From NCBI GenBank assembly GCA_032358255.1, contig JAULBX010026319.1, forward strand, positions 1-49,595: a DNA stretch of 49,595 bases, read 5' to 3'. Origin of the DNA: Heterotrichella gracilis (Eukaryota; Sar; Xanthophyceae; Tribonematales; Xanthonemataceae). Under the pieces are notes generated by a model. It was not told where the DNA came from. It was given only the letters and a program-made list of their open reading frames with translations, and did no database searches. Positions within the stretch are counted from its first letter, which is position 1. Each line of letters opens with the position of its first letter. The position numbers and the translations under genes are program-made. Below are positions 3,731 to 49,358 of the stretch, in pieces.

Positions 3731-6700
3731 ATGGCCCACATAGCCACCGTCACTGGAGCCAGTGGCTTCGTAGCCAGCGAGCTTGTGAAGCAACTGTTGG
3801 AAAAGGGGTACAAAGTGAAGGCCACTGTGCGAAGCACATCCAACGCAGCCAAGGTGGCCCACCTCCAAAAGCTGTCAGACGCCCTCCCAGGGACGTTAGA
3901 GCTGTACGAGGCCGACCTCCTGGTCCCTGGGTCGTACGATGAGGCGGTGAAAGATGCGCACTTTGTGTTCCATGTGGCTTCTCCCTTTGTGATCGACGTA
4001 CCGGACCCAGTCAAGGACCTGATCGAGCCAGCGGTGGAAGGCACCCGCAACGTGTTCAGCAGCATCGGGAAAAACAAGGGCACCATAGAGAAGGTTATCG
4101 TCACGTCTTCAGCTGCGGGTAAGGCCCTCGAACATAGGATGTAGACGCCGTGGCTTGATATTGAACCATCGACATGTGCGGGCATGGGCAAGTGCATGCA
4201 TACCTCCCGTACCCACCCACCTACCCTGTCTGGTGGTCCACGCCGGATCGGACCTTGGCCCAAACATATGAGGCTCTTTGGAAGCCTAGCGTGCCAACTG
4301 TCGCTCAAGTTGGGCAGCTTTTCGTAGATGCGCTGTGAGGCGGTTGTGCCTGTGGTGTGCCAGGCTGGCATATGCATGCATATGTGCAATGTAGGGTCTG
4401 GGTGCATGTGCGCAAACATCACCGTATGTGCCTGAAAGTGCACTGGGCGTCTTCCGTAGACAAGCGTGGCAGTGACTTAGGTTTTGCGTCTTATACCGTA
4501 GGGCTGGACCCATGTGTGTATGGCTGCAGCGCTTGTTTGCCCCTTGTCAGAGGACCTGGAGGATCAGGCAACTGCTACAGCAATGAGCGCCTGGGTTACG
4601 CCTTTAGTTACTGAGATTCAATCCCAGGGTATTGGGGTTTTTCGTGTAGCAATTGCCTTGGGCCCTCCCCCAAGAACCCTTTAGGGTTTCCTTGTGTACC
4701 CAAGCACCCTTTGTGATTGCCACAAAGTGCCTGACACCCCTCTCGGTTTCCCCTTCCCCGTGCAGCCATCAAGGGGCCCAATGGTCACTCTCCCAAGAAT
4801 GGTACAACCTATTCCGAGGAGGATTGGAACACCAGCTCAACACTGGAGAACGGCCAAGCATATTGGGTCAGCAAGGCGAGCGCCCGGAAACCCTACACAC
4901 TGGAAACCCTTGCCACCGGAAACCCTACACACTGGAAACCCTGCAACCATGAGCCCTACACACTGGAAAGCCTACACACCGGAAACCCTACACACTGGAA
5001 ACCCTGCAACCATGAGCCTGAAAATCCTACCCTGCACACTGAGGTGGACTGGGGCACCAGCCCCATGCTGGGGAATGGGCTAGCATGCGTACCGGGTCAG
5101 CAAGGTGGGTGCTGATACCCCTGTTCCCTGGCGTCCCAAACTCTACATTTTAGACCTGAGCATTGAACTCTGTGCCCTCTGCACTGAATCCTTGACCCTA
5201 ACATGAAATCCAATCCTTGACCCTAACATGCAATCCAAGCAGGATTGAATCACCAGCTCCTCACTAGAGGGCGGCCAAGCACACAAGCCAACAAGGGGGG
5301 GAGCTGGAAAACCCTAAACCCTAACAACCCTAATTGCATTACTAGCCAATCAACCACCTGCCCACCCCGCCACTCTAACCCACCTGTATACCCAGCAGTC
5401 TAACTTACCTCCTCCACACCTCCATCGCAGACGCAAGCTGAGCAGCTAGCCTACGAGCTAGCCAAGGAGCTGGGGGTACCTCTGGCCACCATCCTGCCTG
5501 AGTATGTGCAAGGGCCGGTGCTGACCACGCGGCTGGATGGGCTGAGCGCAGGGTTTGTGAAGGTGCGCGCGGAAATTCTAGGGTAATCCTGCTGGAGTAC
5601 GTGCCTGAAGGGGTCCAGCGCAGTGTGTGTAGAAGTGGGTGATGAAACCCTATTGAAGCCCTAGGGCAACCCTAGGGCAACCCTGGCCATCATCCTGCCT
5701 GAGTATGTGCAGGGCCGGTGCTGACCACGCGCCTGGATGGGCTGAGCGCAGGGTTTGTGAAGGTGCGCGCGGAAACCCTAGCCGCAAATCCTAATGTGTC
5801 CCAATGGCTGACCACGCCCCATCACAAACCCTGCGAATTTAGGATTGGTACAGATGGCGCCAGGGTTTGTGATGGTGTGTGCAGAAATCCTAATGAACCC
5901 CTAAATGGAATCCTTCTGGCAGCCAGTTGGCAATGGTTGTGCCATGGAGTTGAGGATGCGCGGAACATGGCACGCACACAAACCCTAAAAATTCCAAACC
6001 CTGGCCCCAAAAACCTGACCATGCACACACAGCCCCTTCCTATACACCCAGAACGCGCGCCACCTACTCACCCTCATCCCTCCCATTTACCCTTGGTAGG
6101 GTTGGCTGGAGGGCAAGGCAAGCGATGAAGCCATGGTGCTGAGTGATGTGAGGGACGTGGCGAGGGCACATGTGCTGGCGGCGGAAAATCCTGCCGCTCA
6201 GGGGCGCTACCTGGTGTGCTCCACATCAACTTTCTCACCCAAGGAAATATCTGAAACACTACAGGTGAGGAAAACCTTGTGGGTCAATTTGTGGGCTTTG
6301 GTAGGGTGTTGCCTGGGTAGGTTTTTCCTGGGTTAAGGTGGTGAATGAGCGCGTGTGTGGGCGGTAGATGGCCACTTTTTTATCATCTTCGCTGGCTCGG
6401 TAGAGACCACAGCCACCTAGAGGCGCTACAGTTGCACATCTGCCCTCTCTCCCAAGGATATCTCAGAAGCACTGAAGGTTGGGTCCACAATCATTATCGC
6501 ATTGTTAGTTTGCAAATAGCTCAGCCATGGTAGCCTGGCCCATGGCTTTTGCATGGCAGGCGTAGCGCAATGGGTGCCGTGGTTGCATATGCATCAGGCA
6601 GGCGCTGACCCTGTGTACAAGTATGAGAGGCATTCCCGACCAACAGCAGCAGTTTGGGGGTATTTGGGGGGTGCTATCGCATAACCATTGCGATAACAAT

Positions 6701-9176: not shown

Positions 9177-12100
9177 TCACTCCGCCCCTCCATCGCCACC
9201 CTCTGGCAGCAGCGCCTCAACCAGCGCGTCAGCCTGCGCCTCCTTGTACTCCTTCATGGTGAAATACACCCACTGTCCCAGCACAAACATGTCCAGCAGC
9301 ATGCATGTGGATGCCTCGGCGATCCACGGGCCCTGGGCGATGAGGTAGCGGTTGTCGTGGGACCTGCGGGAGTAAGTCTTTAGTGAGAATTTGTCAGGGT
9401 TGAGAGTCTGCGAGGGGATTTGGTAGGGTTTTGGGAAGGGTTTCAGTGGTTCTGATACATTTGAGGTTGTGGGCCCTCAGTACAAACATGTCCAGCAGCA
9501 TGCATGTGGAGGCCTCGGCGATCCACGGGCCCTGGGCGATGAGGCAGCGGTTGTCGTGGGACCTGCGGGAGGAGGTTGGTGAGGGTTTGCAGGAATGTTC
9601 TAGGTATGGTTTTTTGTATTGCTGTTTATCAGCGTTTTTTGGTGTGTGGGAGGTGTTTCCGTAGTGTTTCGTGGGCCCTGGGGGCCGAGATAGCAGTGGT
9701 CATGGACTAGAAGGCTGCTGGAGTCTGCTCTACAGGTAGATCACCACCACCACCCAACCATGCATTACGCCCCAAACTAATGTAACCTTCTGATGCTGTT
9801 ACATGTACCCACCTTGTGAAGATGCTTCCCAGGTAGGCGCAGTTTGCAATGACCGCCAGCAGGAACATCTCCACCGACAGGCCCTTAAATGTGCCCCTCT
9901 TGAATGTGTACATGATCTGGGGGAATCTGCCCCACAGGTAGATGACCACCATGACCCAGCCGATGATTTGGCCCCAGATGAACTGGGGGATCCCCAGCCA
10001 TGAGCCATCCCCGTCAAAACCCTCGTGCAGGGGTTGCAGCTGGCTGGGCATCATCCCGGAAAGGCCCAGGTTATTCTGCAGGTACAGGAAAATAAATGGG
10101 TTCATACCCTGGGTGATGATTCATGTATTGCCATACAAGTCCGCTAGAAGCTTGTTGGGCAGTTTCAACTGTGCAGGTACGACCCCACACAAGGTGCTCA
10201 CCCAACCGCATGCATACATATGCGCGCACACAGACTCGTACACGCACCAAGCCCCCCACCCGTCTGCACCTGCTGCGCGCATGCACACAAGCAGACTCGC
10301 ACCCACGAACCGACATGCGCATCTCTGCACAACTACAGGCAAGCACATGCACAACCCCCCACCGCCCCACCAGCCCGCATGCATATGCATGCGTCCCCCC
10401 TCCCCTCTCCCCACACCCCACCCACCACCCACCTGCATCATCTGCAGCTTGGCGCCCGTCACCAGCAACGTGGAGGCACACCCCACCGCCCCGGCCACTG
10501 CAGCAACCACCCCGCTGCCCCTCCCCCTCGCCTCCCCACCACCACCCTCCCCATGGGAGTGGGCGTGCTGGCGAGAGAGTGAGCGGGTGAGTGGACCATG
10601 CAGGGTGGTATTGTGCTCTTCCTCGCCTGCCACGCTGGATTCGTAGCCGGAGAATGTGCGCAGGGAGCTGCTGCCTGCAAAAGTTATGTTGAAAAAAACA
10701 TTTAAACCAGCATCTTTTATAGTTTCCTTTGGAATTAATCTTCAAGTGAGAGGGAGTGGACCGTGCCCTGTGGTGGTGGTGTGTTCCTCCGCGCTTCCGC
10801 CACCCACACTCACCTGGATGCGACAGCACATGCTGCAGGATCCTCTCTCCCTTCCCTGAAAGTTTCTTCTTGTCCCCCCCTAGGGTTGACACAGGCTCGC
10901 CCTCCTCCATGATGGCAGAATCCTCAAGCCCCAAGCCACCCTGCGGACAGAAAAACACCCTATATTAGGGTCCCGGCGCATTAAAAAACCGTTGAATAGG
11001 GTTGACACAGGCTCCCCCTCCTCCATAATGGAGTCCTGAAGCCCGAGGCCACCCTGCGGACATCGGCAGAATCCTCGGCCCCTTGAGGGGGGTCTCAAGT
11101 GCAGTACATATTCGTGCATCAACAGCTCAAACCTACAAACCCTACAGAGGTCAAGCCCAAACCCTCCAAACCCTTATCCAAGCCCACCCCCTACCTCCCC
11201 TTGTGCATGTAGTACACGTGCTGGAAGCACAGTAGGAAGGTCACCAGGGTACAGTATGAACTAGTTTAAACCCTACAACCCTCAATCAAACCTTACACAA
11301 ACAACCCCTCCACCTAATCACAAATTCCTACTTGGGCGAGCATCTACTGCAAACCCCAACATCGAGAATTCCACCACTTTTAAACCGCCAGTCACTCACC
11401 TCCCCCTTGTGCATGTAGTACACGTGCTGGAAGCACAGCAGGAAGGTGACCAGGGTGTAGAGGATGGCGGTGTACAGCTGGGTGGGAAGCTGCAGCAAGG
11501 GGGTTGGGGGTTGGGGTGAGGGCAGTGGGGTTGAGGGAAGAAGACAGTGGAGGGGGAGGTGTGGTGGGTGAGAGCAGGTGGAGGGTACAACTGGCACTGT
11601 GACGTGCGGTAGCATATCTACAGGTGGTGTGGTGTTGTGATGGGATGAGTAAAATCGGAGACCCCAGGGGGGAAAGGCAGGGTTTAAAGAGGGTGTGCCA
11701 GTAGGAGAATAATTGAGGTGGTCTGGAAGCTATCAGGTACACAGGTACAAATGCAGTTTACAGTGGACAGTGGCTGGAGCTGCAAGGTGGGTGGGGTGTG
11801 GGAGGGATGACAGCGAGCGTCCAAGGGTACGCTGTGGGGAGTATGCGTGGCATGTCTAGCTGCTTACAACATATGCCGGAACCCCTGGCCAGGGAAGGTG
11901 TGGCCCCAGTGGTAGTCATGGTGGCGGGAGTGCACACGGTAAGGTCGTGCGGCTGACTCGAAAGGTGTGTCCACATGCGTGACGTACTGCCAGGGTTATG
12001 CATGCCATGTGATGCTAGCGACAGCCAAGGGTTGTGTATCAGCGCCAGCAGTGCCCACGGTGTAGTAAAGCCAACCTAGGATATCATTTATGGTTTAGGT

Positions 12101-16300: not shown

Positions 16301-18881
16301 GGGATGAGGGGGGCCAATCGCTCGCCCGCTTATTATTAAAGTCATCTCCCTGCACCTTAGCAAACACCTGAAACCCTAAGCAAACACCTGAAACCCTGAC
16401 CCTGCCTTGCCTCGCTTGTGCAGAGGACAGGGACGAGGGGGGTCTTGTAGGGCTGGGCAGGGCGCTGTCCCGCTCCTGGGCTGCCTCACCCTCTGCCAAG
16501 CAAATGGTCATCGCATGGGCAAACTTCCTGTTCATGCCAGAGGTGCGGACAAACGCTTATGAAAAACCTAATGAGACTTCAACGAAATCCTGTTAAAATC
16601 CTGATGGATTTGCAATGGAGGTGATTGCACAGGAGGTTGGCCTATGCATTAACAGAACAGAATAAAGGAATAATGATGGGGTTTCCACCGCAGCATTTCC
16701 GCCACAGGCCACTCCGGGGATGGGCTATGCATTCCCTCCCTCATTACTCCCTCATGAAACATTTCTCAAGTAACTCCCCTCCTTGATACGCTTGTAGTCC
16801 CCCCACTCCACCCACACACACATGTCTTATGCTTCAGTGATTGCACATGCCTTGTCACCAATGATCGGTCCCTTGATTCAAAGTCGTTCCCTGCCCAGGT
16901 GATCAATCGTGAGTGGAGCGGGAGGGGGGTGATAAACTGGGCGAAATGCAACCTCCTCCCCTTGCTCAGCATTCCGGAGGATTTCCAAGGGGTGATAATG
17001 CATGTGGAGACGATAGTGGGGCAGCATTATGTGGTGCCAGTGGTAAGTAAACACATATCTAGGGTTTAGGGTTGGCTTAGTAAGTAACACGTGTTCACCT
17101 GCCGCCTATTGGGGAAGCATGAATATTCCTCGCCCACATAAACGCAAGGCAGACCAAACATTTTTTGCTAATGAGCAAGACTTTGCTGTCTTGGCTGCAA
17201 GGTATATGCAGCCCACATCTACAGCTACATATGCGCTATAAATGGATACAATACAGTACACACAGTACCTGTTAATGGCTCATGGCATGGTGAAATTCAG
17301 GGTATTTCCTCGTGCATTGCAGCAATACAGCTAGAATAGCAGCCAGTCTTGCACACTTTTGTGCCACTGAGCTCTATCCTGGCAGGTGGGTGCGAACTAT
17401 CTAAGTGTGCACCATATATGTACTTGAATGCCCCACATGTTTCTTGTGCCTGTTCGTATGTGCATTTCTGCACAATAGGAAAAGTGGTTTGCATGCTGGA
17501 TGGCCCAGGGTTAAGTGGCAACCACTGGGGTACAGCCAGCATGCAGATGCGTTTTCCTATTGTGCAAAAGTGCACATATAAACAGGCACAAGAACATGTG
17601 GAGGAGTTTATTACAAATGTGGTGCACAGTTAGGTAGTATAAATATATCTGACTTCCATCATGGGCAATTTGCAGGTACTGTATGTAAAATTATTTAGTA
17701 TACTATATATTCTTATACTAATATAAAGTATTCATAGAGAATATTTTCCTATGAAACACCTGACGCTGAGCACATGGGCTGCACACAATGATAGCCCATG
17801 TGTAGCACAGGAGAGCCATTTTCAGTAGCTGGATACTATGTTTTGCCTCACACATTTGTAGATGAGACAAGTGTTCCAACGCCAGAAAATGCATTTCCAG
17901 CCCAAAACCTTAACCCTAAACCGTCGATGTGGTGCCAGTGGTAATGAAGAATATAAATTTCAATGTTAATATCAAATGTCTGCAAGCTGCATTACCGGCT
18001 GAGTATCGCAATGGGTGCACCTCGATAGAAACACAAAACCCCAAACCCTGAAGAAGTGCAGTGCGCAGGCTGGTCGAACTGCGTATTTGACTGTACTTCA
18101 TATTACAAACGACTGCACAAACTAGAAATGTGTTAAAACAGACAAAATCACCCTTTCACCCACTGTCTAGGGTTATTGCATGAGGGTCTGACACCCACGT
18201 CCACACCCCACACCCCACACCCACACACCCGCTACTCGCTTTTCTCAGGCCGACACCACCACCTTCCTCCAATCCCAAGCCGCTGTCGAGCAGGAAACGG
18301 GGATCCCCAAGAACCTGCAGCACACCATCATCGCCCAGCGGCGGCCCCCCAACAAAGCCGTAGAGAGGGTAAAGCGGGTGGTGCTGCGGGTGGTGGTGGC
18401 GCTGCTGGTGCGCCTGTACCGGCTGCTGCTGTGGCTGGTGGTGGGGCTGGTGGGCAAGGAGATAATGGCGCAGTTCATACCCCGGGGGAACATGGTGGTG
18501 CAGGTGGGTGTGGGAGGGAATGGGGGTTTGGAGGATGTTGCGGTGGTGGTGGCGATGGTGGTTGTGGCGGGGTGGGGAGTGCGGCATTACCGGCACGTAG
18601 ATCTGGATCAAACCCTATTCCATTCACCTGAATCCTGCACCCTACTCCCCTCATTTTTCGTCTACTCATTTCCCAAGCACCGTCATCACAACCCTAACCT
18701 AGGGTTTCCCCCATCCCGGCAGGTCACCACCACCAAAGGGCGACAGGTGGAGCTGGAGGTTCCCGGCAACACCACCATCCACGACCTCATGCAGCTCATA
18801 GAGAGGGACCAGGACTGCACCATGGACGCCATTGCAAACATCACCATGAGCCAGCAGCCAGCACTATCGCTGCCGAGCTGA
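13307..18881 (+). CDS. Unrecognised membrane protein with ubiquitin-like-looking segments, nine exons
   Basis: Exons 13307-13324, 13475-13541, 13972-14041, 15401-15599, 15969-16056, 16424-16542, 16899-17042, 18249-18503 and 18723-18881 join in phase to 372 aa. The ATG has a strong context (GCCACCATGG). Residues 1-100 are Ser/Pro/Ala-rich and probably disordered. Residues about 103-155 (LRMSNGHLSLIHV, VTIGELRAACRDQVGLAPE) look like a ubiquitin-like beta-hairpin plus helix. A strongly hydrophobic helix spans about 279-304 (VVLRVVVALLVRLYRLLLWL). After it, residues 321-362 (VTTTKGRQVELEVPGNTTIH) again have the strand-turn-strand-helix rhythm of a ubiquitin-like fold. I do not recognise the family; the ubiquitin-like reading is inference from pattern only. 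An alternative extra exon at about 14719-14912 is open but not needed for the frame. Confidence 0.75.
14463..14508. mobile_element. Small MITE with CAGGGGTATAC-like ends, copy 1
   Basis: Imperfect 46-base palindrome starting CAGGAGTATACTAACTA and ending AATTAGTATACCCCTG. The bases ATGTGAT occur just outside both ends, like a target-site duplication. Half-copies of the same end occur at 14381-14396 and 14563-14580. A second full copy is at 27167-27219. Confidence 0.6.
15202..15262 (+). pseudogene. Copy of exon 4 start of the membrane-protein gene
   Basis: GAGGTCCCTGCACACGCCAT and CCCTGGCCTCCCTGGGA parallel the exon start CAGGTCCCCATCCCTGGCGT (from 15398) on its 5' side in intron 3. It is decayed and out of frame. 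Confidence 0.55.
16286..16322 (+). pseudogene. Copy of exon 6 start of the membrane-protein gene
   Basis: CCAGGGGACAGGGATGAGGG repeats the acceptor and exon start GCAGAGGACAGGGACGAGGG (16421 on) about 130 bases upstream. Acceptor plus first codons only. Confidence 0.7.
17388..17640. repeat. Long hairpin element C inside an intron
   Basis: The two halves pair over about 100 bases each. Left blocks GTGTGCACCA, CCCACATG, CTTGTGCCTG, TGCACAATAGGAAAA and GCATGCTGG match right blocks CCAGCATGC, TTTTCCTATTGTGCA, CAGGCACAAG, CATGTGG and TGGTGCACA as reverse complements. It lies in intron 7 of the membrane-protein gene, on its sense strand, so it would be transcribed as a hairpin. It could be a MITE or an intronic small-RNA precursor. 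Confidence 0.78.
17923..17946 (+). pseudogene. Copy of exon 7 end with donor
   Basis: GATGTGGTGCCAGTGGTAAT repeats the end of exon 7 and its donor (ATTATGTGGTGCCAGTGGTA at 17027-17046) about 900 bases into intron 7. Eighteen bases are identical, including the splice site. Confidence 0.7.
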
Positions 18882-28406: not shown

Positions 28407-31400
28407 TCACATGCTTGCCAGCTCCACCCTGGTTGCCCCCGCCTGCACCACCAGGGCCGCAGGGTCCCACCCAGCGGTCGCCACCTGGCGCATGAAGGCG
28501 GGCATGGCGGTGCGTGCTGCATCCAGGCTGGCGGTGATGTCGGCTGGGGAGGCATCCATGATGCCCCGGCGCTGCAGCCAGGCTGCCTGCGCATCATTAC
28601 AGCTGCGTGTAAATGCGATCTGGAAGGAGAAAATGCGTTAAACTTGCATTTCACTAGTTTTACCATCACGACTTTTATGATTACAAATAATCATCAAATG
28701 TACAGTAGAAAATGTAAAATCGAATTTGGCTGTGCGTGCTGCGGCCAGGCTGGCGGTTGTGTCTGCTGGCGTGGCATCCATGATGCCCTGGCGCTGGAGC
28801 CAGGCTGCGTGCGCATCATTGCAGCTGCTTGATATGAACAAAAAGAAGAAACATGTCACCTTTTCCATTTTATCATCGTAACTTTTTTAAGAATTAGATA
28901 TAATATTTAAAAAAGTACAATTCAAATGCAAAGTACATAGTATTAAATATACGATTATTACGATAATAATCAACTTTTTTCATTCCTCATTACCAGGGGT
29001 GCAATGCCTCCATGGTGTGGCGGCGATGCAGCCATGCCCGCAGTTTGCGATGACTTCCAGGTGTAAGTGATGCCACAACCACAGTACCAGTACTGCACAG
29101 TGGGGCATTTTGCATCCAGCCAACCTACACCTGCAATTTCTCACCCCGCACCCTCGACTCTCAATCCCCGGAGGCATCCCACCCACAACACTGCCTGCAC
29201 CCCCTAAGAACCCCCATCCGTCCCCACCACCCAAACAACACATCCATTTACATACATCATACACAGTGACAACACTCCCACCCCACACCCGCAGCCTCCG
29301 CTCCCCACCCCCACCCACCTGCCACAGCGCCTGCAGAACCTCCTCACCCCCCGCGTCCCCCGCCAGCACCACGCATCCCCTCCCTCCCCTCCACACCATC
29401 ATGTACCGCTCCCCCTGGTACTCGGCTGCCAGCTGCGTCAGCTGGCGCGAGGCGAAACCTCTTCCCAGGGCCTCCTCCAGCCCCACCCCCAGGCGCACAT
29501 AGGGGGAGAGCAGCGCGGGGTCAACTATTATGTTTTCCCTGGCATTGGTCTCCTTCACGCCTGCGCATGGGGTACAGCGCACCTTTTCGTTGTTTTATAA
29601 CTTTTGAATTCCGAATATATCATATATTGCAATTTGTTTTTAAAGTTACAAGATTTACAAGATTTATTTCTACTTTTCGTATCTTGCCATTTTATCTTGT
29701 ATCATTGTGAAGTTGCACTTATGCAAATTCACAATGATACATGGTAAATGTCTTTTTCATTTTCTGCCTTTATTTCTGATCTTTTGTTTTGATCCCCCTT
29801 CCGAGTCGTCTATGTTCCTTAGGTTATTGTTTTGTTCCCCTTTCTTTTTCGCAGTTACTTTTCACATTGCTTGCGCGTGTTTAAGGCGTAGTGCCCCGCA
29901 CCTGGCAGTGGCTGGCCATCAAAATGCGCGTTGACCAGAATGCAAGCCCGCTGCTAGTTGAGGTAGGGCAGCCCTACAGGTAGGGTTGCACCAACCAGCA
30001 CCCCTTGCAAGGGCCGGCCAACATGACATCGGTGGGACTTGCACTGAATATGCAATCCCAAATTGCAACCTTCCCAAGGATTGTACCAACCTAGCGCCTC
30101 TCACCTGGCATTGGCTGTCCGTCGAAGTGCGCGTTGACCAGAATGCAAGCCCGCTTCTGGTTGAGGTATGGGAGCTGAAGGCTGGCGAGCGAGCAGTAGC
30201 GCAGGGCCACATGGGCGGCCTGCGGCACATGTCCATGTACAACCCTTGAGTAGGGTTTTCTAAAAGGGGTCAACGCAGGTGTAGGGTGGCGCGGCGCTGC
30301 TGTGTCGCCGAGGAGTCCTAGCTGAGGCATCTAAAAATCCCTGGAGTTATATGGTGTTAGAGAAACCTGGTTGAGGTAAGGGAGCTGCAGGTTGGCGAGC
30401 GAGCAATTGCGCAGGGCTACATGGGCGGCCTGCAGCGCACATGACCATAAAGAGAACCCTGAAATAGGGTTTGGGGAAGGTTGGAAGTTGCCACCACCAC
30501 CACCATTGCCAGTCTGATGTGCAGGGGGAGTCATGCCTGAACCCGCACCGCCAGGACCCCACCCTACTAATGCACACAATTCCATGGGGGTAAAGGGGGT
30601 ATCGACATTCACATGAGACCAGGGGGGGGCTGTGGCCGTGGTACCCGCATTACCGCCCACAGCCCCACCACACACTGCGGGCTGAGACCCCCAGCATGGA
30701 GTATGGCTCCTAAAACTTGTTAACTCCCCCTGTCCATCGTCCAAATCATGTCCGACTAACACCCTAAACCCTACAAAAGTGCTTTTGCCATGTGGCATGA
30801 GACCTCACAGGCAGGTGTAGTGCACTATACCCAGGGAGACACGCCGCCATTAAAGAGGAAGAAATTTCGAAAAACTAACACCCCAAACTCCTAAGAAATC
30901 AATAAAAAATACAGAGCTTTGAAAAGATAAATAGATACGATAACCATACGAAGGGGTTGTCCAAAGGCACCATACCTGCACAACCGCCCACAGCCCCACC
31001 ACCTCCTCTGCACTAGTACCCCCACTCGCAAGCGCCCGCAGCATGACCACACTGGCACCCAGGCCCAGCAGCTGACCCGTCACCTCCCACACCTGTAATA
31101 GAACGGTGAACATCAGGTATCCGTAATCGTGTACTCATTCAAAATTTGTAGTTTCAACACTCAATGTAGATTAGCTTTGTCAACTGGCGCCCAAGTTTCC
31201 TCATTGCCCGCAGCATGACCACACTGGCACCCAGGCCCAGCAGCAGACCCGTCACCTCCCACACCTACAGGGGCACAACATTGGGGTATAATAGATGCAA
31301 ATAAATAATCAATTTACGAAGTTAATTTTCCACAGACGGAGCAGGTAGCCGATCGCCCCCCACATCTGCAGTGGCAAAACATTAAATATGATGGATGCCC

Positions 31401-34057
31401 CCCCAAAACTGATATAATGTGATGGATGCCGACAAAAAAAACGTACAATCAAAATTACACATGTATGCAACTTATTTTACCATGTATGCATGGCCCCCTG
31501 TGCCTACCTCCTCTTTTGCAGCCACATCTCCCACATTGAGGGCCACCCCCGTGACCCCTCCCGCCGCAAAGTGGGTCTGTATTACCCTAAAACAGGGCTT
31601 TGCAAACGACTTGGCCACCGCCGTAGCCAGGTTGCCTGCTCCCGCGAAAACCTAGGCAAGGGTTTTAGCAAGGCTCGGTGGGGAATGGGAGGTTGTTGGA
31701 ATCCATGATGCAGCTGTTGGTGGCAGCCATTTGTTTGCAGGTGAAGCACTTGCAAGATGTGCATGCGTATATGCATACAAATGTATACAGCCATAAGTCC
31801 AGCTGTACATAAGCACCCACACACCCAACCACCGATATACCCACATGCGCACACACATACACCACCACCCATCCCGCCCACCCACCAGGAAATTGGCTCC
31901 ATCCAGCGAGGTTGCGATCTGCAGTGCCAGCCCCACCGACCCAATCAGATCCGCCACCACCCGCCAGCGCTTGGGGTCCTCATCAAACACTGTACTCAAC
32001 CGCCCGCCCACCTGCAGGGTCAGATTTATGTCAACTTATTACACGACCGTTGGGAGCTCAATTTGTCTGACACCACAGTGAGTGCCAATGCTTTATTTCT
32101 GTAAATAAGTAGTCTTTAATATGGCTGTCAAATACATGTTGTAACCTTGTAGTAGATAATTTGAAACTAGATGGCCTGCAGCACTCCCAACACATGTGAG
32201 TACTAAAACAGGCGCCAGGCACGGGCATGTGTGCCTAAATGCTGCAGGTTCTGTATGTGTGTATGTGCGTACATGCCAATGCAAATCTGCGGTGCAAGCC
32301 ACATATGCATATACCATCAGGAAATAGGCAGAAGCACCAAATCATGTGCTCACGCAGTACACAAACGTTCCGCGCCAAAAAAACACCTTTTGGCAACATT
32401 TAAGCAATGCTTTATCCCTCACCCCCAAACACCAAACCCCACCACCCACACCCACCAGCAGCCTGCCCAGTGCTCCAATGCCATCCTTTGTTACCCACTT
32501 TATGGCGGCGGTGGCGCCCACCACCCCCACCGCCCCGCCACCCCCCACCCCCACCGCCGCCAGCATGCCCGAGGTCACTAGAGACTTGCTCATCCACCCC
32601 TGCGCACACATGAACACACAGTCACTTGGTCACTGATGTGGCTGGGCGCACTGCCCACAGCTGGTAGGGTTTAGGGTTATAAGTATCAGGTTTTTCGGGT
32701 TTCTGGGTTTCACACATGCACACCCAGTCACTTGGTCACAGTCCACATGGTCAATCACTGTGATGGGCATGGGTGCACTGCCCACAGCTGGTAGGGCTTG
32801 GAAATACACATCTAGGGTTTGGAATCACACTTCAAGGGTTTAAGGTTTTAAGGGTGTAGGGTTTTAGGATTTGAAGGTTATTAGGGTTTAGGGTTTTAGG
32901 GTTCTCACCGTGATGTGGGTGGGCACTGCCCACAGCTGGTAGGGCAGGTAGTCGGGTGTGACGCTGTTAGGGTAACCCGTGGGGAAGTAAAACCCTACAG
33001 AGGTGCCACACAAGGGTCAGTCAGTGCCACATGACACAATTGCCCATAAAGTGCCACCAGTAGCTGAGTCAGCGTCACATGCTACGTTCAATGCTGCCAT
33101 GTATGAGCATACATGTCGCAGACGTGGCATCAGGATCCTGGAACTTCAGTGAAAGCCATTTAACGGGGTGCAATACAAGTAATTGCGATACCGCGCCCAT
33201 CACTCTCCCTGCAGGCCACCTACCCATTATCGCATCCATCACCCCCCCTCGTAGGCCCCCTGTCCCGTTGTCATTGGCCACATCGCTCACTGTGGGCTGG
33301 GCCCCATCCAGCACGTATCGCTGCCGCGACCTCCTCGTCCTTTCAATGTATACCGGTATCCCCTGTAAGGGGGACCACATGGGCAGCCCTTGTTACTCAG
33401 GGCTCGCATACAAAATACATTGAAAAGTTTTTTCAATGTACACCAGTATCCCTGCAATGGGGATCAAATGGGCGGGCCTTGTTACTCAGGGCTCGCATAC
33501 AAAATACATTGAAAAGTCCCTTCAGTATACACAAGTATCCCCTGCAAGGAAAGGGGCTATGTGAATGTGGTGTGGCACCAATGGTGTTGGCGCCAGTGGT
33601 GTGGTATGGGTGGTGGGGTGGCGTGGCAGGGGTGTGATGGCGTGGCAGGGGTGTGGGAGGTGGGTGAACCCTACTTGTGAATAAACCCTGTGCAAGGGTG
33701 CTGTAGGAAAAACGTTGCTGAGGTATGGTGATATGAACCTACGCAGGGCTGCTTAAAACTTTCAATCCTGCTCCGCTGTTGGCTGGCGTTGGTTCAGGGT
33801 TAACGGATAAGGGTTTTGAAAACCCTGCAACAGCTCACCTGCTGGGTAGTTTCTTGGGGTTTCTGTGGGCTGGTGCTGGTTTCCCCCCCTGCAGGCGCCT
33901 GGCACCGACACCCCCGGTTCCCTCTCCGATCTTGAAACGGCTTCTTCAGTCCAATGGTGCCCAGCTGCCTAGGCCTGGCCTGATGTGCTGCGGCATTGGG
34001 TGCGAAGGTGGTGGCGATGGCGTGTTGAGTGGGAGCCACACACCGTGACAGCTTCAT
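28407..34057 (-). CDS. RUS (ROOT UV-B SENSITIVE / DUF647) family protein, ten exons
   Basis: Exons on the minus strand: 34057-33839, 33362-33224, 32994-32909, 32599-32456, 32011-31886, 31651-31508, 31092-30976, 30219-30105, 29560-29319 and 28619-28407. All phases fit and give 514 aa. Residues 1-73 are rich in Ala, Arg, Thr and Gln with few acidic residues, as in a plastid transit peptide. The RUS domain follows: PTGYPNSVTPDYLPYQLWAV (about 123-142), KWVTKDGIGALGRLL, FDEDPKRWRVVADLIGSVG, AKSFAKPCFRVIQTHFAAGG and VWEVTGQLLGLG. In plants RUS proteins act in early seedling development and UV-B response; the biochemical role is not settled and the algal role is unknown. Copies of exons 2, 3, 7, 8 and 10 lie in the flanking introns. 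The start was chosen as the ATG opening the basic leader. Confidence 0.92.
28726..28833 (-). pseudogene. Copy of last RUS-like exon start
   Basis: On the minus strand it reads SCNDAHAAWLQRQGIMDATP then ADTTASLAAARTA against SCNDAQAAWLQRRGIMDASP and ADITASLDAARTA of the source exon (28500-28612). It lies 5' of the source in the last intron. It is open but lacks the downstream half. Confidence 0.85.
29895..29965 (-). pseudogene. Copy of RUS-like exon 8 end with donor
   Basis: CACCTGGCAGTGGCTGGCCA, then AATGCGCGTTGACCAGAATG and CAAGCCCGCT repeat 30102-30155 (3' half of exon 8 and donor), shifted about 200 bases into the next intron. Confidence 0.85.
30362..30447 (-). pseudogene. Copy of RUS-like exon 8 start with acceptor
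   Basis: TGGTTGAGGTAAGGGAGCTG, GGCGAGCGAGCA and ATGGGCGGCCTGC repeat 30158-30225 (5' half of exon 8 and acceptor) on the opposite side from the copy at 29895. Together the two copies cover the whole exon. Confidence 0.85.
30636..30690 (-). pseudogene. Copy of RUS-like exon 7 end with donor
   Basis: ACCGCCCACAGCCCCACCAC (30650-30669) repeats the same 20 bases at 30983-31002, the 3' part of exon 7. The flanks are more degraded. Confidence 0.78.
31204..31273 (-). pseudogene. Nearly identical copy of RUS-like exon 7 start with acceptor
   Basis: GCCCGCAGCATGACCACACT through CCCGTCACCTCCCACACCT repeats 31033-31093 with a single visible base change (CAGCAGCAG for CAGCAGCTG) before the acceptor. 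It is the youngest-looking duplicate in the window. The flanking RUS-like coding sequence is not included. Confidence 0.92.
32634..32675 (-). pseudogene. Distal copy of RUS-like exon 3 end with donor
   Basis: GCACTGCCCACAGCTGGTAG with preceding CTGATGTGGCTGGG parallels 32908-32944, the last codons of exon 3 and its donor. Confidence 0.78.
32757..32805 (-). pseudogene. Proximal copy of RUS-like exon 3 end with donor
   Basis: ACTGTGATGGGCATGGGTGC then ACTGCCCACAGCTGGTAGGG is the second downstream echo of the exon 3 end. The two copies and the source make three steps spaced about 120-150 bases apart, with CCAGTCACTTGGTCAC repeated between them. Confidence 0.8.
33340..33550 (-). repeat. Tandem copies of RUS-like exon 2 start
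   Basis: Three successive units begin with CTTTCAATGTATACCGGTAT (source, 33340), TTTTCAATGTACACCAGTAT (33431) and CCTTCAGTATACACAAGTAT (33518), each followed by CCCTG(T/C)AA and the acceptor on the minus strand. Units 1 and 2 share GCTCGCATACAAAATACATT further on. The unit is about 90 bases and crosses the exon 2 acceptor. Confidence 0.85.
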
Positions 34058-37689: not shown

Positions 37690-38775
37690 GTAGAAGACGG
37701 CGCCACAACCGCTTGAAGGAGGCTCAATGACCTCTGCAGCAGCTCAAGTAATGGTTTCAACGCCACCCGCTGGTAACAATACTGGCCCCACCAGACAAAG
37801 CACTGCCGTGGTCCACCTCCCATCATGGTCCATATGATACCAACTTGAAGGTCAATAATCCCCAATATATATTTTGGGGATAAATCCTCCATATTTGGTG
37901 ACCTTCAAAAGACTCTTGTGACACTGTCCGGGATATCCACAGTTGAACCCTGCCACTCAGGGAGATTCGTGTGTATATTGCCTTTGCAGGCCATAAATAC
38001 CATAAATATAATCTAAAAACGCTTCGGGAAACCCTACAACCAACTTTCTTGTTATAGGATAAGAATAAGAATAGTAATGTATCCGTCTTGCTATAGCATT
38101 GCCGCAGTGCAACAATTGGTCCCCACAAGGCATGCGCGCTGCGCACCTGGCAGGCAAAAGGCAAGGCATGCGCACCTGGCGGGGACCGCGACTCTTAGCC
38201 ACAGCTAGCACCCAGCCAGCCTGTAGCAAGAGCGAGAGTGCGCACCCATTCAGCTTCCCGCCCCTACCCCAGGCCCCCCAACTCTCCTGCCAGCCTACCT
38301 TTGTAGACGCGAGTTTCATCTTCATTGTCCTTGAAATGTTTCTGAAATAATGCTTTTCATAATATTGTTGATATTATTACTTAAAAAAAGCTGTACTGTT
38401 GTAAAACATGATTCTAGCACACTCATGGTTCTAGCACACTTATATATAAAAGATGGTTCCTGCACACTCATATATAAAATCCGTAAAACTTCACGGTGGC
38501 AGTACCCGCCCGCGCAAATCCCTCCCGCCTCCCACGCCCCCGTGCGCCCACATTCACCTCCCAGGTAGGGCGTGCAATCTGAGCAAGCCAAACACCAGCT
38601 TCAAATCATAGTCAGCCCGCCCATACTGCCCCAGCCCCTCCTGGTGCGCCACGCTGTCGTGCAGCTCGTCCTCGAACGCCTTCTCCCGCAGGCCCCACGT
38701 GGCATCCAGCAGGGTTTCCTGGCCCACCCCCTGATGCCCCCGACCACTGCAGATGCCCATGAAGGGGTGTAGGGA
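37690..38775. repeat. Segmental duplication, left copy
   Basis: Collinear with 46205-47315. Matching landmarks in order: GACGGCGCC, CCACCCGCTGGT, TGGTCCACCT, CCATATGGTACCAA-like, CACTGCCACTCA-like, ACCCTACAACCAAC, TAGCATTGCCGCA, AATTGGTCCCC, CCCGCCCGCGCAAATCCCTC and GCCCCTCCTGGTGCGCCACG. Overall identity looks about 65-75 percent, higher at the right end. It carries a broken copy of the end of the GT77-like gene. Confidence 0.8.
38560..38760 (-). pseudogene. Broken copy of the GT77-like gene 3' end
   Basis: On the minus strand it reads QETLLDATWGLREKAFEDEL then HDSVAHQEGLGQYGRADYDL. The real last exon at 47136-47483 has QETLLDAMWGLREQAFEDEL then HDSVAHQEGLGQYVGGL. The copy loses similarity after GLGQY (frame change) and lacks the upstream part of the exon. 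It lies inside the left segmental duplicate. Confidence 0.88.
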
Positions 38776-38955
38776 TCATGGCCAACTGGTTCTAACATTG
38801 ACACTTTGCTGTGCAGCATTGAACCAGTCTGTTCATTTGTTTAAAAAATGTTAAGACTTGTCGCATCAACAAATTTCCCAATATATCGGTATTATTATTA
38901 CAGCATACCAGCCACAAAGCCAGATCAGCAATCAACCTTGCACAAGCATGCGCCA

Positions 38956-43700: not shown

Positions 43701-45390
43701 TTATCAGTAAGCTGCAAAGCCATGTTCCAGTTGCTGATTTTGCAACTTGGGGTTCTTGTTTGGGCATGCATGCAGCTCTTGGTTTCTCCAAATAGAAATC
43801 ATAATGGAGGCTGTGTTCCCTATTTCTGCAAGTTAGTTAGTTAGTCACATGCATTCCAGCAAAACTGCCAGAGTAGCATTCAGTCTTGCACATGCGGCGC
43901 CTTGCAGCTCTATCCTGGCACTTTTTGAACCATCAATTGATCCCACACAACTTGAAATCCTGCTGGTCAGCCCATGTGGCCCTTGGCTTACATACCCTCT
44001 ATTTCTGCAAGTTTCTTAAGACATATTCGTTGTTGGGTTGTTTTTGCGCATTATATAAATGTATCAAGGACCACAAAGTACCACACCACCCTCACCATCG
44101 TATTTTTTACGTTTGATACATGTATTATAGCAATACTGAGCGGGGCGCATGCTTACTAGCATTGTGTCATTGCAGCCATTCGACCAACAATCATGATGCT
44201 CCTTGAGAGGCAAGTGGACATTCCTGCGGTCCACTGGCTTGACACACGCTTCCATTGGGGGACCCAGGTGGGTGGTGAAAGTCACACGGGTATTGATGCA
44301 ACATCAATGATGTTTGATAGTAGTCCTCTGGATCAAGAGGACATCGAGCACAAGTGAAGTAGGTGACGCATCAACCTGCTTTGCTGCATAATTCAGGGTC
44401 CAGTTAGTCAAATATTTCAACCTTTGGTTTGTTAGCAAATGCCCGCATACAGTCAGAGTAGCAGTTCACCATCCTGTGGGACCGAGCACTATAGGCACCC
44501 AAGCAGTAGAGTTAGTAGAATACAATGGGGTGGGCGTATTCATTTGGGTGCATTGATTAAAGTACATGGCCTGGGAGCAGCATCAAGCTTGGCAACCTCC
44601 GGAGGGAGCGTCGATTTTCTATTTTTTGAACAAATCCTTTATGTTAGAAATAACATAATATTATCTCTGGTTTGTAAGTCTTTTATTTTGCTGCTGCTCA
44701 GAAGTGTGGCTTATGAGGCTTCGCCAGATTAGCGCCCATTCTCATCTGCATAGTGGATGCTAGTGGATGTTTCCCTGTTTGTTTACTGTATGTACATCGC
44801 AAGTGAGGATGCCGCTAGTGATGCATTTAACCCTAGATAGGCTAAAGAAGTCACAACGTTTTGCTGCTGCTTTGGTTCATCAAGGAGGTGACAGCGTTGC
44901 CGGGTACAAGGTTAGCGCACCTACTTTCCCATTTCTTTAAAAATCACAATTCTCTATCAGAAGCTTTGAAAGCAACTTTGTGGAAGTTGTGGTTTCCCCC
45001 AATACCTTGCAGATTCAAGCCTGTAATTAGCAGCCCTTGTGGAGCATGAGGTTGGGCATATTACCAGTAGGGTTGTCCTCAACGAACAATATAAATTCAA
45101 TGTGAATTGTGTGAATAAAACCCTTTTTTGTGCTAGGTGTTTGACCTGCTCATTGCTGTTAAGGTGTGGGTGAAAGGCCCACATTTTCTATGGTTTTTGC
45201 ACAGGTGGCGTCTGGTCGCGAGCGCGGCAGCCTGTACCTGTCAAGCTTGGTAGAGCAGGAAATTGCGGTCCATGCCACTGTCTTCTTGGCATGTCCCCCC
45301 TCCAGCTTCACCTCATCCATCCTGCGAGAGCGCATGGCCCTCTATCCAGATCGCCCCAACCTGGTGTACCCCAAAATGGCAATGCCTTAG
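40759..45390 (+). CDS. O-fucosyltransferase-like protein, nine exons
   Basis: Exons 40759-41048, 41299-41402, 41697-41776, 41834-41971, 42497-42625, 43075-43330, 43565-43690, 44176-44267 and 45205-45390 join in phase to 466 aa. FPIQNFGPNNQFATFISHVF (about 57-76) followed by LAKALNRTLILPFFV is the start of the GDP-fucose binding fold. FEEIFD-like HFEFEETFDRQVLHQYV comes next. IAFHVRPFDVDD matches the H-x-R motif of the O-FucT family, and SLVEQEIAVHATVFLACPPS then SSFTSSILRERM is the usual C-terminal end. Such enzymes move fucose from GDP-fucose to proteins in ER or Golgi. The exon 3 donor (AAT/GTAGCA) is weak. The ATG lies 9 bases after a possible acceptor, so an upstream exon with a signal sequence may be missing. 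Introns are more AT-rich than in the other genes. Confidence 0.85.
43871..43922. repeat. Dispersed repeat shared with intron at 17331-17387
   Basis: AGTAGCATTCAGTCTTGCACA ends here with AGCTCTATCCTGGCA; the same two blocks occur at about 17336-17387, just left of hairpin C. The spacing is similar. Confidence 0.55.
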
Positions 45391-45701: not shown

Positions 45702-46204
45702 CTATGGTTGCTCTGATTTTCATATTTTTTACTAGTCATTTATAGTATTTATAGTGAAACTCTATTTCTTGGGCTCGTTTATCATTGGTTCCATATTTAT
45801 CACGCTTATTATAGGTTACTTTGACTGGTGGATCAAGCGAAAAATGCTAAGCTCAGTATTTTGATGTACCCTGGTGGCTGTCACTGTTGTATTCTGCGCA
45901 CATTGCCTAAATAACTGGTTTGGGTAACTTGAAGGCAGCCCCACATGTCAGTGTAAGACCAATTGGCAAAGCTGCGCTAGTGGCCACGGGGATAGGCACC
46001 ATTCTGATACCACCATACTTCCACATTAGCTCGTATAATACAACATCAATGCCGCGGCCGCGGCCGCCGCGTGTACATACATGACAATGTTATATACTTG
46101 CTAAATACTAGCTAATATCACTTATATTGTGGGCATTATTTTTTTATACTGGCTGTTGGAATTTAATTTAATTGTGGATCCCAATGAATGCAACCATTTT
46201 AGCT

Positions 46205-47315
46205 GCAGACGACGGCGCCTCAAATGCCTGCAGAGCGCGAGATGAAGGCTCTATGCTCTTTGCTAAAATGATGGTATGAATGCCACCCGCTGGTTATAGC
46301 AATGGCACACTGCGCCCCACCACACTTGGTGCTAAAACCAAGCAGTACCATGGTCCACCTACGCAGGTATCCCATGGTCCATATGGTACCAAGGTCAATG
46401 GCCAGGACAACAGCCTGCCATGGGCGTGCCTGCCATTTATCAGCCTGACATTTCTGCTCCAAATATGGTGACCCCTGAGGACATTTGGATGTACGGAGTT
46501 GAGCACTGCCACTCAAGGAAATACGTGCGCACGCTGCCATTGCAAACCAGTATTACACACTAGAAACCTTTTGTGACCCTACAACCAACATTCTCGCTCT
46601 ACACTATGCATAGAAGCTGAAGTTGTAATGTCTGGCTTTAGCATTGCCGCAATGCAAGAATTGGTCCCCGCCAGGCATGCGCACAGGGACCGGGGATCCA
46701 CCCCCAGCGGGATCCCCAGCCAGCCTGTAGCAACAAGAATAATAAGATATTGTAGGTCCTGATTTTGTAAGGTCATACCCTAGGTAGGAATGGCGGGGGT
46801 CTGCACCCACTCAGCTGCCCGCCCCCATCCCAGGCCTCCCTCTCACCGAGGGCCTACCAGCCCAGCTTTGGAAACCTAAATTGCTTTTAGTTTTCCTTGA
46901 AGTGGTAAAAATAATTACATCTAGTAAGTTTGTTCAAATTAAAAAGCTTTACTAATGTACAAGCTAGTTCTAGCACACCAATACAGCTAGAAAACGTAGC
47001 GGCGGCAGTTCCCGCCCGCGCAAATCCCTCCCCCACTCCCCCACTCCCACACCCCCGTGCCCCCGCATGCGCCCCCCAGGAAAGGCGTGCAAGCCAAACA
47101 CTGGCCTTAATTTAAATAGATATCTGGACCCAGGGTTAAAACATAGTCAGCCCGCCCACATACTGCCCCAGCCCCTCCTGGTGCGCCACGCTGTCGTGCA
47201 GCTCGTCCTCGAATGCCTGCTCCCGCAGGCCCCACATGGCGTCCAGCAGGGTCTCCTGGTCCACCCTTTGATACCCCGGACCGCTGCAGTTGCTCATGAA
47301 AGGGTGATGGGATAG
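46205..47315. repeat. Segmental duplication, right copy
   Basis: Collinear partner of 37690-38775. It runs from the 3' flank of the GT77-like gene into its last exon, so this copy, attached to the intact gene, is the likely source. Confidence 0.8.
46915..46919 (-). terminator. Candidate TGTAA polyadenylation signal
   Basis: TGTAA on the minus strand, 217 bases after the GT77-like stop. Confidence 0.4.
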
Positions 47316-49358
47316 CCGCCTGCCAGCGTCCGGGTCTGACTCCTGCGGGGGGTTAGGTGAGTTCCCCGCCATGTACAGGGGCCGGTAGCTGCCGTTCCCC
47401 CACTCAACCAGCACCAGTTTGCCTTGCCGCATGGTGGCCTCCTTGATTTGGCGCCCGGGTTTGCACGCCGCGTGGTAGTACACCTGCACAGGGCGCGTAG
47501 GGTTATTAGGTCAGGGTTCTGGGTTCAGGGTTCAGGGTTCAAGGGTTAGGGCTCAGGATTGGGTGTCCTCCTTGGCTTGGGGCCCAGCAATGCACGCCGC
47601 GTGGTAGTATACCTGCACAGAGGGTGGGTTTAAGGTTTCAGGTTTAGGGGTGAGGGTGCAGTGAGGGAGGTTGGCCCATGTGGGGGTGAGCATGTGACCC
47701 CATGCGTCCACCGCCCATAGGAGTCATGGGCTGCGATCCTGAATTCTAAACCCTAAACCCCCTAAAACTCGACCCTACACTGACTTCATGACCACAACAG
47801 CACGCGATGCTTGGCAAAACATCGCCAAAGCAGGCGATCACCCCGCCGCGGATCCTCCCCCATGCACCGCCTCGACCCCTCGTCCCCATCTTGAACCACA
47901 GGCAATTAATCAAAGAACCCCAACCCCTAAAACCCAAACCCTTCACTCGTTCCCCACCTTGAACCACAGGCAGTGCTCCAAAAAGTGCGAGAGGTCGCCG
48001 CAGTGCAGGGTGAGCCACTGCGCACCCTAAACTCTAAACCCTAGACACGTCCCCCACCTTGAACCAGAGGCAGTGCTCCAGAAAGTGCGTGAGGTCCCCA
48101 CAGTGCAGGGTGAGCGACTGCGCGGGGTGGCGCACCACCGCCACTCGCCCAGTGCGCTGCACATACCGGCACTGCCGCGGTGTGTGGCACGCCTGCCACA
48201 CCGCGTGCTGGTCGCCGTTGTCCCCCTCCATGAGGTTGTTCCATATCCACTGGTCGAACATCTGGATGTTGGCGCCATCTCTGGTCATGTGCTCCTCAAT
48301 GTGGTCCAACCAGCTGCAAAAGAAGGGGGCATACACTCAGCAACGGTTACCCTCAGAGCGTGCACGGTGGAAAATGGTGTGTACCCAGTAGCCATTTGCG
48401 TGCCACCGCACTGGGAGTTGGAAACCCTAACAGGAACCCTAAGCATGTTGTTCCATATCCACTGGTCAAACATCTGGATGTCGGCGCCATCCTTGGTCAT
48501 GTGCTCCTCGATGTGGTTCAGCCAGCTGTAAAAGAAGGGGGCATCACATTTTTCTTAAGAGCTTTTTTTTTCCGAAAAGGATATACTAATTGGTATATTC
48601 TTTTCCAAAAACAAAAAAAAGGCTCAGACCGAATATGTATCAATATTTTATTTAAGATGTTTAGAATGTATGCATTCAGCCACGGCTAACCTCAGACCAT
48701 GCACGGGCCACATATGGTATACACAGTAGCCATGTGCATGGCACCAAAGGAGTTCCATCCATACATGCCGTTGCTGATTCAGCAACCAGTGCGTGTCTGA
48801 AACCCTAATAGGAACCCTAGGCGCCGTCCCTGGTCATGTGCTCCTCAATGTGGTACGGCCAGCTGCCAAGGGGGGGGAATAACATGGTGACGCAAAAAAT
48901 GGTGATGTAAAATGACAATTAAATCCACAAACTCCTGACAGTATTGTTTTCCATTTCTAGCACGAGCATATATTATTCCATATTTACGCAAAATTAATCC
49001 GACAAATTAATCGGATTAACTTAACCCGAGCCTACGGTGTGCACGCGGGGAGAACATGATTTGTGCATGGCACTGCCTAGGGCCTAGCTATAGCCCATGT
49101 CCCCTACACAACCACCCTGCCCCGCCATGGCTTGCCAAGTGCACCGCACCGCACCTCTGGAATGCGACCAGTGTCCTGTTGTTGTTGCGTACGTAGCTCA
49201 CCCCCGTGTTCACCCCAGGCCCCTCAACCATGAAGGTGGCATCTGCATCAAATTTGTGTGTGAAGAAAGTGAATGACGCCAGGGGGTCCCGGAACAGCAC
49301 CACGTCTGTGTCGCACCACAGCAGGGTGTATCCCAGGCGGAGCAGCTCAATCATCACC
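47136..49358 (-). CDS. GT77-like (Nucleotid_trans) glycosyltransferase, 3' part
   Basis: Three exons are visible on the minus strand: 49358-49155, 48313-48058 and 47483-47136, joined in phases 2 and 0, ending in TAA. The 5' exons lie beyond the right edge. Exon 1 of these reads ELLRLGYTLLWCDTDVVLFR then DPLASF, the DxD motif and its surroundings typical of the nucleotide-diphospho-sugar transferase domain of RRA/RGXT-type enzymes. GVNTGVSYVRNN and NIQMFDQWIWNN follow in the family order. VYYHAACKPGRQIKEATMRQ opens the last exon. Relatives add arabinose or xylose to cell-wall glycoproteins or pectin in the Golgi; the donor here is not determined. The C-terminal 60 residues are duplicated at 38560-38760. 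Fragments of the last two exons lie in the introns. Confidence 0.85.
47575..47625 (-). pseudogene. Copy of GT77-like last exon start with acceptor
   Basis: TGGGGCCCAGCAATGCACGC then CGCGTGGTAGTATACCTGCA and CAG repeat 47448-47490 (start of the last exon and acceptor) about 130 bases upstream in the intron. Confidence 0.85.
47872..48022 (-). pseudogene. Two copies of GT77-like exon end with donor
   Basis: CCCACCTTGAACCACAGGCA, GTGCTCCA and AAGTGCGAGAGGTCGCCGCA with GTGCAGGGTGAGC (47954-48015) repeat 48053-48115. A shorter echo, CCCATCTTGAACCACAGGCA, stands at about 47884-47903. Both hold the 3' end of the exon plus donor and lie 3' of it. Confidence 0.88.
48430..48537 (-). pseudogene. Proximal copy of GT77-like exon start with acceptor
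   Basis: GTTGTTCCATATCCACTGGT, CATCTGGATGT, GCGCCATC and GTCATGTGCTCCTC with the acceptor flank AAAAGAAGGGGGCAT repeat 48234-48332 with about ten changes. It remains open and would encode nearly the same residues. Confidence 0.9.
48812..48868 (-). pseudogene. Distal copy of GT77-like exon start with acceptor
   Basis: GCGCCGTCCCTGGTCATGTG then CTCCTCAATGTGGTACGGCC and AGCTGCC is a third, shorter version of the same segment, further 5' in the intron. Confidence 0.82.

Follow-up and report, generated by a model that had tools for sequence, protein, structure and literature searches.

Probable local duplication of exon–intron edges associated with telomeric motifs in Heterotrichella gracilis

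Introduction

To our knowledge, intron lengthening and the origin of cryptic splice sites have usually been studied where the traces of the process have faded. A contig of the xanthophyte Heterotrichella gracilis (JAULBX010026319.1, 49,595 nucleotides (nt), assembly GCA_032358255.1; numbered C381 among the 903 contigs of the 68.5-Mb genome) raises the question directly, since its introns contain fragments, here called echoes, that copy the adjacent exon. A preliminary description of this whole stretch, referred to below as the window, attributed the echoes to tandem duplications across splice junctions and connected them with the AGGT model of intron gain. What the echoes are, whether they occur beyond the window and what might generate them are the questions addressed here. 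Our answer is that junction-spanning direct duplications probably arise at exon–intron edges, linked to telomeric motifs at the edges of introns, by way of break repair.

Results

Introns carry direct copies of the exon edge they adjoin

Echoes were sought in 332,695 bases including the window (∼333 kb, 0.5% of one genome). Beyond the window, the sample consisted of 240 kb at kinase loci and ∼54 kb from two further searches; it is gene-biased, having been seeded by kinase matches and a donor-like pattern. Exons were called from genomic sequence alone by a purpose-written gene finder, itself trained on the same genome, in which neighboring genes come out merged even with a raised intron penalty and retraining. 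Overlapping loci (L012, L014, L016) and gene models scoring below 20 were left out before counting, and 279 introns of 60–1200 bp were counted. A mixture of two organisms was considered as a source of the sampled loci and set aside, as their guanine–cytosine content (0.495–0.602) and its value at third codon positions overlap and visual inspection showed no clear division.

In 558 comparisons of an exon with the adjacent intron, 27 matches (16 + 11) reached a score of at least 50, and none did so in any of the four controls, in which the introns were reverse-complemented, reversed, dinucleotide-shuffled or permuted (same-locus permuted pairs scored 0). At a score of 34 there were 41 matches versus 1, 1, 0 and 1 in the same controls. 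The excess over control introns that the preliminary description had expected from self-alignment was thus found in this sample. A permissive scan, in which as much as 60 nt of flanking sequence at the junction was included, yielded 58 matches versus 5 for reverse-complemented and 8 for reversed introns, so the weakest permissive matches are not all safe. In the window, 11 of 35 introns matched the adjacent exon at a score of at least 50, and by a stricter rule 9/35 introns bore echoes there versus 19/244 sampled elsewhere. The phenomenon therefore extends beyond the window, which is richer in echoes than average.

The copies are overwhelmingly direct. With telomeric words masked, BLAST found 70 direct and no inverted pairs within 700 bp across the sample; in the window alone, self-BLAST gave 28 direct and no inverted pairs, four of the 28 being more than 8 kb apart and thus not local. 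All eight examples listed in the preliminary description align with the adjacent exon in direct orientation. Its side rule, by which donor-containing copies lie 3' of the exon and acceptor-containing copies 5', also held. In a set of 31 exon-only matches (score 42, exons cut at 300 nt), 25 reached the exon end facing the intron and two the far end; the near junction was approached to 3 nt or less in 14 of the 19 matches to an upstream exon and in 11 of the 12 to a downstream exon. The copies usually include the splice site, as had been stated: GT or AG was kept at the echo junction in 23 of 27 aligned cases, a further four being unalignable there, and decoy splice sites are therefore common. 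Introns with an echo were also longer (median 466 bp, n = 28) than those without (270.5 bp, n = 232; p = 3e-6), in agreement with the proposed lengthening, partly because an echo adds length and partly because long introns give more room for one.

Copy offsets fell between 90 and 222 bp in 27 of 31 cases. Among 112 direct clusters of exact 14-mer seeds, 24 had offsets of 80–120 bp, 20 of 180–220 bp, 15 between these ranges and 28 of 20–80 bp; a nucleosome-length reading of the peaks near 100 and 200 bp is only suggestive. Unequal exchange between motifs flanking an exon was rejected as a source of the copies because it predicts whole-exon copies and only the two matches above reach the far exon end.

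The copies diverge like neutral sequence beside a constrained exon

A second set of 31 echoes (score 180, exon part at least 30 nt), different from the exon-only matches, was used for motif positions, copy-by-copy motif counts and strand orientation. Identity in this stricter set ranged from 0.63 to 0.93, and BLAST pairs reached 98%, in keeping with the wide range of ages noted before. Among the 58 permissive pairs, 23 passed filters on score, identity and length. Their exon parts were 10.9% divergent and their intron parts 21.0%, and the synonymous and nonsynonymous values were 0.174 and 0.089 per site (uncorrected), a ratio (dN/dS) of 0.51. A constrained parent exon paired with a neutrally evolving copy should give an exon-to-intron divergence of about 1:2 and a dN/dS near 0.5, and the divergence seen fits this pattern. 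Frameshifts occurred in seven of the 23 pairs and in-frame stops in none, leaving 16 with neither.

Junction-spanning copies exceed the expectation for uniform duplication

The 70 direct pairs collapse into 50 non-overlapping clusters, of which 36 join exon and non-exon sequence, nine are non-exonic and five join exon to exon. The ratio of junction-spanning to non-exonic clusters (36:9, or 4.0, with the caveat that the gene finder may label some repeats as exons) compares with 0.21–0.28 in simulations of uniform duplication run under identical divergence rules and with the score threshold matched, so that detection bias is included. The junction excess goes beyond easier detection, a point that adds to the preliminary description.

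Telomeric motifs mark the edges of introns

The true telomeres of this genome look like TTTAGGG, the plant-type unit, and contigs such as C70, C140 and C609 begin with arrays of it. Telomeric 7-mers are also frequent in introns, at 4.1–4.6 per kb sense and 2.7–5.3 antisense, compared with 0.43 and 0.15 in exons and 0.42 and 0.59 in shuffled introns. The runs are mostly single units (410 of 452). The plant telo box AAACCCTA occurs 1015 times per Mb of intron and 64 times per Mb of coding sequence, both strands counted. Telomeric words cluster within 60 nt of splice sites, with 0.2–4.9 per kb farther in; the sense motif peaks at 17.4 per kb 20–40 nt upstream of the acceptor and the antisense motif at 10.9 per kb 20–40 nt downstream of the donor. 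Introns without any echo carry edge motifs as well (16.6 per kb, 20–40 nt before acceptors), and a splicing role for the motifs is possible.

Gene-finder training showed a C-rich TGCAG acceptor in this genome. The C-strand bias on the acceptor side may simply be selection against the AG of TTTAGGG near the acceptor. Genome-wide, a two-unit motif was found 5–35 nt before GCAGG 1594 times and in the swapped order 1065 times, a contrast that is not clean because the swapped set includes GCAGGT donors. At C11:68243-68449, C19:120814-120959 and C2:135932-136032, a splice-like site together with a telomeric motif repeats ∼48–98 bp apart.

The motifs are tied to echoes in a side-specific manner, which is likewise an addition to the preliminary description. 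With exon-only detection (score 46) and introns shorter than 130 bp excluded from these tests, a donor-edge motif was present in 9/17 introns with a donor-side echo versus 19/221 (odds ratio 12, p = 1.5e-5), and an acceptor-edge motif in 6/10 introns with an acceptor-side echo versus 27/221 (odds ratio 11, p = 7.6e-4); counts for the wrong side were 4/16 and 2/9. At a score of 38 the corresponding figures were 9/19 versus 19/217 and 8/14 versus 26/217. The link persisted inside echo-bearing loci only (donor 9/17 versus 9/75, p = 6e-4; acceptor 6/10 versus 14/75, p = 0.01) and outside the window, where motif coverage was 3.8-fold (p = 0.0002, 15/208 introns). At the level of loci, motif density followed echo density (rho = 0.78, 25 loci).

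In the score-180 set, 21 of the 31 echoes have a motif in the stretch that separates them from the junction (500 control draws gave a mean of 4.3 and at most 11), and the median distance of the motif is 25 nt to the junction and 19 nt to the echo. A telomeric word was spanned by 30 of the 50 direct clusters, where 11.9 were expected; for the non-exonic clusters alone (4/9, 2.3 expected) there was no clear link. Compared copy by copy, the motif was found in both flanks of 13 echoes, in the real flank only of five, in the echo flank only of three and in neither of ten. All 13 both-copy pairs share a common orientation, two of them being copies of a single exon edge, and two of the real flanks hold one further motif in the opposite orientation. 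In those cases, therefore, the motif probably preceded the duplication. The idea that the window spacers are purely degenerate telomeric arrays was abandoned: degenerate telomeric sequence was recognized in six of 13 (p ≤ 0.025) and not in the other seven.

Echoes and other features of the window

For the window (Table 1), the more than 20 fragments in six genes originally reported exceed what this analysis supports: the permissive scan gives 17 matches, some of them weak, in addition to several copies that were called exons, and they lie mainly in four genes, all Pfam-supported. Of the seven window proteins searched in Pfam, those four passed the cut-offs (epimerase family, PQ-loop, RUS/UVB_sens and Nucleotid_trans), one fell just under the ubiquitin cut-off and two had no match. 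The epimerase-family gene is presumably cinnamoyl-CoA-reductase-like. Scans of the window against Rfam (gathering threshold) and for tRNA genes gave no matches. The spacer beside the echo at 11193-11258 scores as telomeric. Outside the window, a contiguous tandem was found in locus L034 (5007-5137/5138-5267, 91%).

Table 1. Echoes and their source segments in the window (positions are those of the 49,595-nt stretch)
Feature	Position	Strand	Evidence and remarks
Source segment: 3' part of exon 5431-5562, epimerase-family gene	5474-5562	+	Gene model, Pfam PF01370, alignment
Donor-side echo, two 1-base indels in exon part	5672-5792	+	BLAST 5675-5781 to 5474-5581, 93%
Older weak echoes, same epimerase-family intron region	5591-5662, 5842-5902	+	Scores 118, 128; top of 100 shuffles 110
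Source segment: acceptor end of PQ-loop gene exon 9177-9363	9279-9363	-	Alignment, gene model, Pfam
Acceptor-side echo of PQ-loop exon	9478-9593	-	Aligns to 9279-9398, 90%; gene finder made 9488-9562 an exon
Acceptor-side echo of exon 10814-10940	10997-11062	-	BLAST and permissive scan
Donor-side echo of exon 11400-11489	11193-11258	-	BLAST 11193-11250 to 11398-11456, 95%; permissive scan 11133-11258
Acceptor-side echo of 28505-28609, RUS/UVB_sens gene	28727-28831	-	Alignment, permissive scan
Donor-side echo of exon 30105-30219, RUS/UVB_sens gene	29889-29972	-	Aligns to 30092-30175, 86%
Acceptor-side echo of exon 30105-30219, RUS/UVB_sens gene	30367-30472	-	Aligns to 30157-30258, 83%; AAACCCTA in both copies
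Acceptor-side echo of exon 30976-31092	31206-31266	-	Aligns to 31034-31094, 60/61; spacer like neither flank
Two short donor-side echoes of exon 32909-32994, intron with telomeric repeats	32634-32669, 32755-32797	-	Versus 32911-32944, 92%; versus 32905-32945, 86%
Acceptor-side echo of 47433-47491	47562-47620	-	Degenerate telomeric spacer 47492-47561
Donor-side echo of 48025-48123, Nucleotid_trans gene	47925-48023	-	True tandem, 100 bp unit, 1 nt gap, telomeric motif in both units
Acceptor-side echo of 48235-48332	48447-48544	-	92%; gene finder made 48463-48525 an exon
Older copy of segment 48235-48332	48820-48885	-	BLAST and permissive scan

The window also holds a tandem repeat at 33341-33547 (90 bp offset, 86% identity) and a diverged duplicate, 37941-38776 and 46497-47313, which covers part of the Nucleotid_trans gene (46.5–49.6 kb) in three pieces of 70–79% identity. 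Cross-locus comparison showed that echoes form no shared family, and an introner family was dismissed because an all-against-all comparison of introns recovered one dispersed repeat of ∼60 bp rather than the echoes. This repeat occurs in 11 of the 279 introns (window 17313-17384, matching 43850-43920, and loci L002, L007, L018, L019, L022, L031, L032, L036 and L038), on the gene-sense strand in every cross-locus match listed, and extends to the acceptor in one window intron. Genome-wide there were 719 candidates, and the 40 that were scored all reached at least 94 bits. It is possibly a short interspersed element or an introner-like element.

Discussion

The observations are probably best explained by small local direct duplications that recur at exon–intron edges and are linked to telomeric motifs. 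Each such event would leave in the intron an exon echo together with a decoy splice site, either donor or acceptor, and the echo would afterwards decay neutrally. The motifs would predate most duplications and be fragile spots, where a fork stalls or the DNA suffers a staggered break and repair then re-copies or fills in the adjoining 60–200 nt. Unrelated filler may sometimes be added during repair, giving copies that are spaced rather than strictly tandem. Duplications that disrupt an exon would be purged by selection, while those that span a junction merely lengthen the intron and may persist.

Several results weigh against this account. Among 41 direct pairs of at least 80% identity, not all of them exon echoes, the spacer was shorter than 25 nt in seven, 41–154 nt in 26 and longer in eight, so that tight tandems, contiguous as expected of small tandem duplications, are a minority; BLAST does end early, and some spacers become shorter when the alignment is permissive (at 5474, from 93 to 63 nt). 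Fifteen of the 34 spaced pairs have spacers that resemble a flank (p ≤ 0.01) and 19 do not, and simple tandem duplication followed by decay is therefore rejected as a full account. Of the preliminary proposal, direct duplication across existing junctions thus stands, while contiguity does not. The pair 31034/31206 has one mismatch in 59 exonic positions versus 8 in 24 of the aligned intron part, a change too abrupt for neutral decay of a single unit. An intact telomeric word is absent within 70 nt of either flank in the ten echoes with no motif, and edge motifs occur without echoes at 17/232 donor and 29/232 acceptor edges, so the motifs are not sufficient. Finally, the exact 14-mer seeds included 18 inverted pairs beside the 112 direct ones.

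How far do other explanations account for the same data? Random tandem duplication everywhere, with intron-only copies fading sooner because both members diverge at neutral rates, would fit the neutral-type divergence and the direct orientation of all 70 BLAST pairs, yet it predicts the simulated ratio of 0.21–0.28 rather than 36:9 and offers no reason for the side-specific motif link; we regard it as improbable. If the copies were instead mutually exclusive alternative exons under selection, the lack of in-frame stops and the 16 pairs free of both stops and frameshifts would be expected. The seven pairs with frameshifts, the partial extent of the copies (two of 31 reaching the far end of exons cut at 300 nt), so that they are not full exons in frame, and a dN/dS that matches one constrained and one neutral copy make this very unlikely. 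False duplication of haplotypes or reads in the assembly is less likely still, indeed scarcely credible. Offsets clustering near 100 and 200 bp are sizes that short reads could mimic, but an artefact sits poorly with the wide range of identities, the side rule, the codon-aware divergence and the absence of inverted BLAST pairs. The concern raised earlier that the copies might be collapsed haplotypes likewise appears unlikely, judging from the nonsynonymous, synonymous and intronic divergence, which fits neutral decay beside a constrained parent.

Two further explanations invoke telomere enzymes. Telomerase might cap breaks near exon edges with TTTAGGG before joining, sometimes duplicating the flank, so that motif and echo are made together. 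There is a mammalian precedent with flank duplication (PMC2246262), and for plant telo boxes it has been proposed that telomerase acts on free 3' ends (PMC3022908). The five pairs with a motif in the real flank only would also suit it. Telomerase repair should place the motif only between the copies, yet 13 of 31 carry it in both in a common orientation, and we think this route rather unlikely. Alternatively, CST with polymerase alpha-primase could fill in 3' overhangs, CST being drawn to telomeric single strands, before end joining; in human and mouse cells this machinery gives rise to small tandem duplications where the ends of a break have complementary 3' overhangs (PMC8355091). The strand orientation derived from this, in which the 3' tip bears the telomeric G strand, was seen 12 versus 8 times (p = 0.50, not significant). 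The spacers are left unexplained, and this proposal seems no more probable than random duplication.

A stronger version of the break-repair reading can be entertained as a speculation that we hold doubtful: in this lineage intron-edge telomeric motifs could drive intron growth in a self-reinforcing manner, each motif making its junction prone to breaks, repair duplicating the exon edge together with the motif, and the copy bringing a fresh motif and a fresh decoy site. If this were true, telomerase, CST or telomere-binding proteins inside genes would set intron length and splice-site noise.

The echoes resemble several known systems without coinciding with any of them. Introners, through which many introns are altered by one process, share that breadth, but echoes are locus-specific and share no family beyond the one dispersed repeat. 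Paired-nick duplications in plants and insertions in rice are reportedly further examples of staggered-break duplication. Those events and the small tandem duplications produced by CST–polymerase alpha fill-in at staggered breaks (PMC8355091) have in common with the echoes that they are short, direct and local and contain no family sequence. The echoes differ in that 34 of 41 pairs are spaced by at least 41 nt and in being concentrated at those exon edges that have telomeric motifs. When an intron is gained through tandem duplication of a coding segment that holds a proto-splice site (PMC2891723), splice-competent exon sequence is likewise duplicated, but here an existing intron is lengthened and in-register repeats at both intron ends are rare. 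The two ends of an intron were alike (score at least 90) in 9/203 introns versus 1/203 permuted, and four of the nine were exon–exon matches. Only one of the nine (L032, 997 bp) was roughly in register across both junctions, and AGGT intron gain, cited in the preliminary description, was discarded as the main process on these grounds.

Mammalian interstitial telomeric repeats were inserted at breaks, with flank duplication at 6/130 rodent and 4/25 primate loci (PMC2246262). Telomeric units at breaks, here presumed ones, and occasional flank duplication are common to both systems, whereas here the units are mostly single, occupy intron edges and in many cases form part of the duplicated segment (13/31). 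Plant telo boxes are the identical 8-mer, at 150.7 per Mb of intron in Arabidopsis and 72 in rice (PMC3022908); the value of 1015 given above counts both strands, and the strand counting of that paper may differ. A further difference is that the telomeric words here are gathered at intron edges. Among the matches listed from the open-access literature, outside which most subscription papers lie, titles and the starts of abstracts described no such phenomenon.

In any case, H. gracilis keeps many such traces, which differ widely in age and go with a sequence motif, and the process is therefore directly measurable in this organism. Should telomere-type repair work at exon edges, it would connect the maintenance of telomeres with the evolution of introns.

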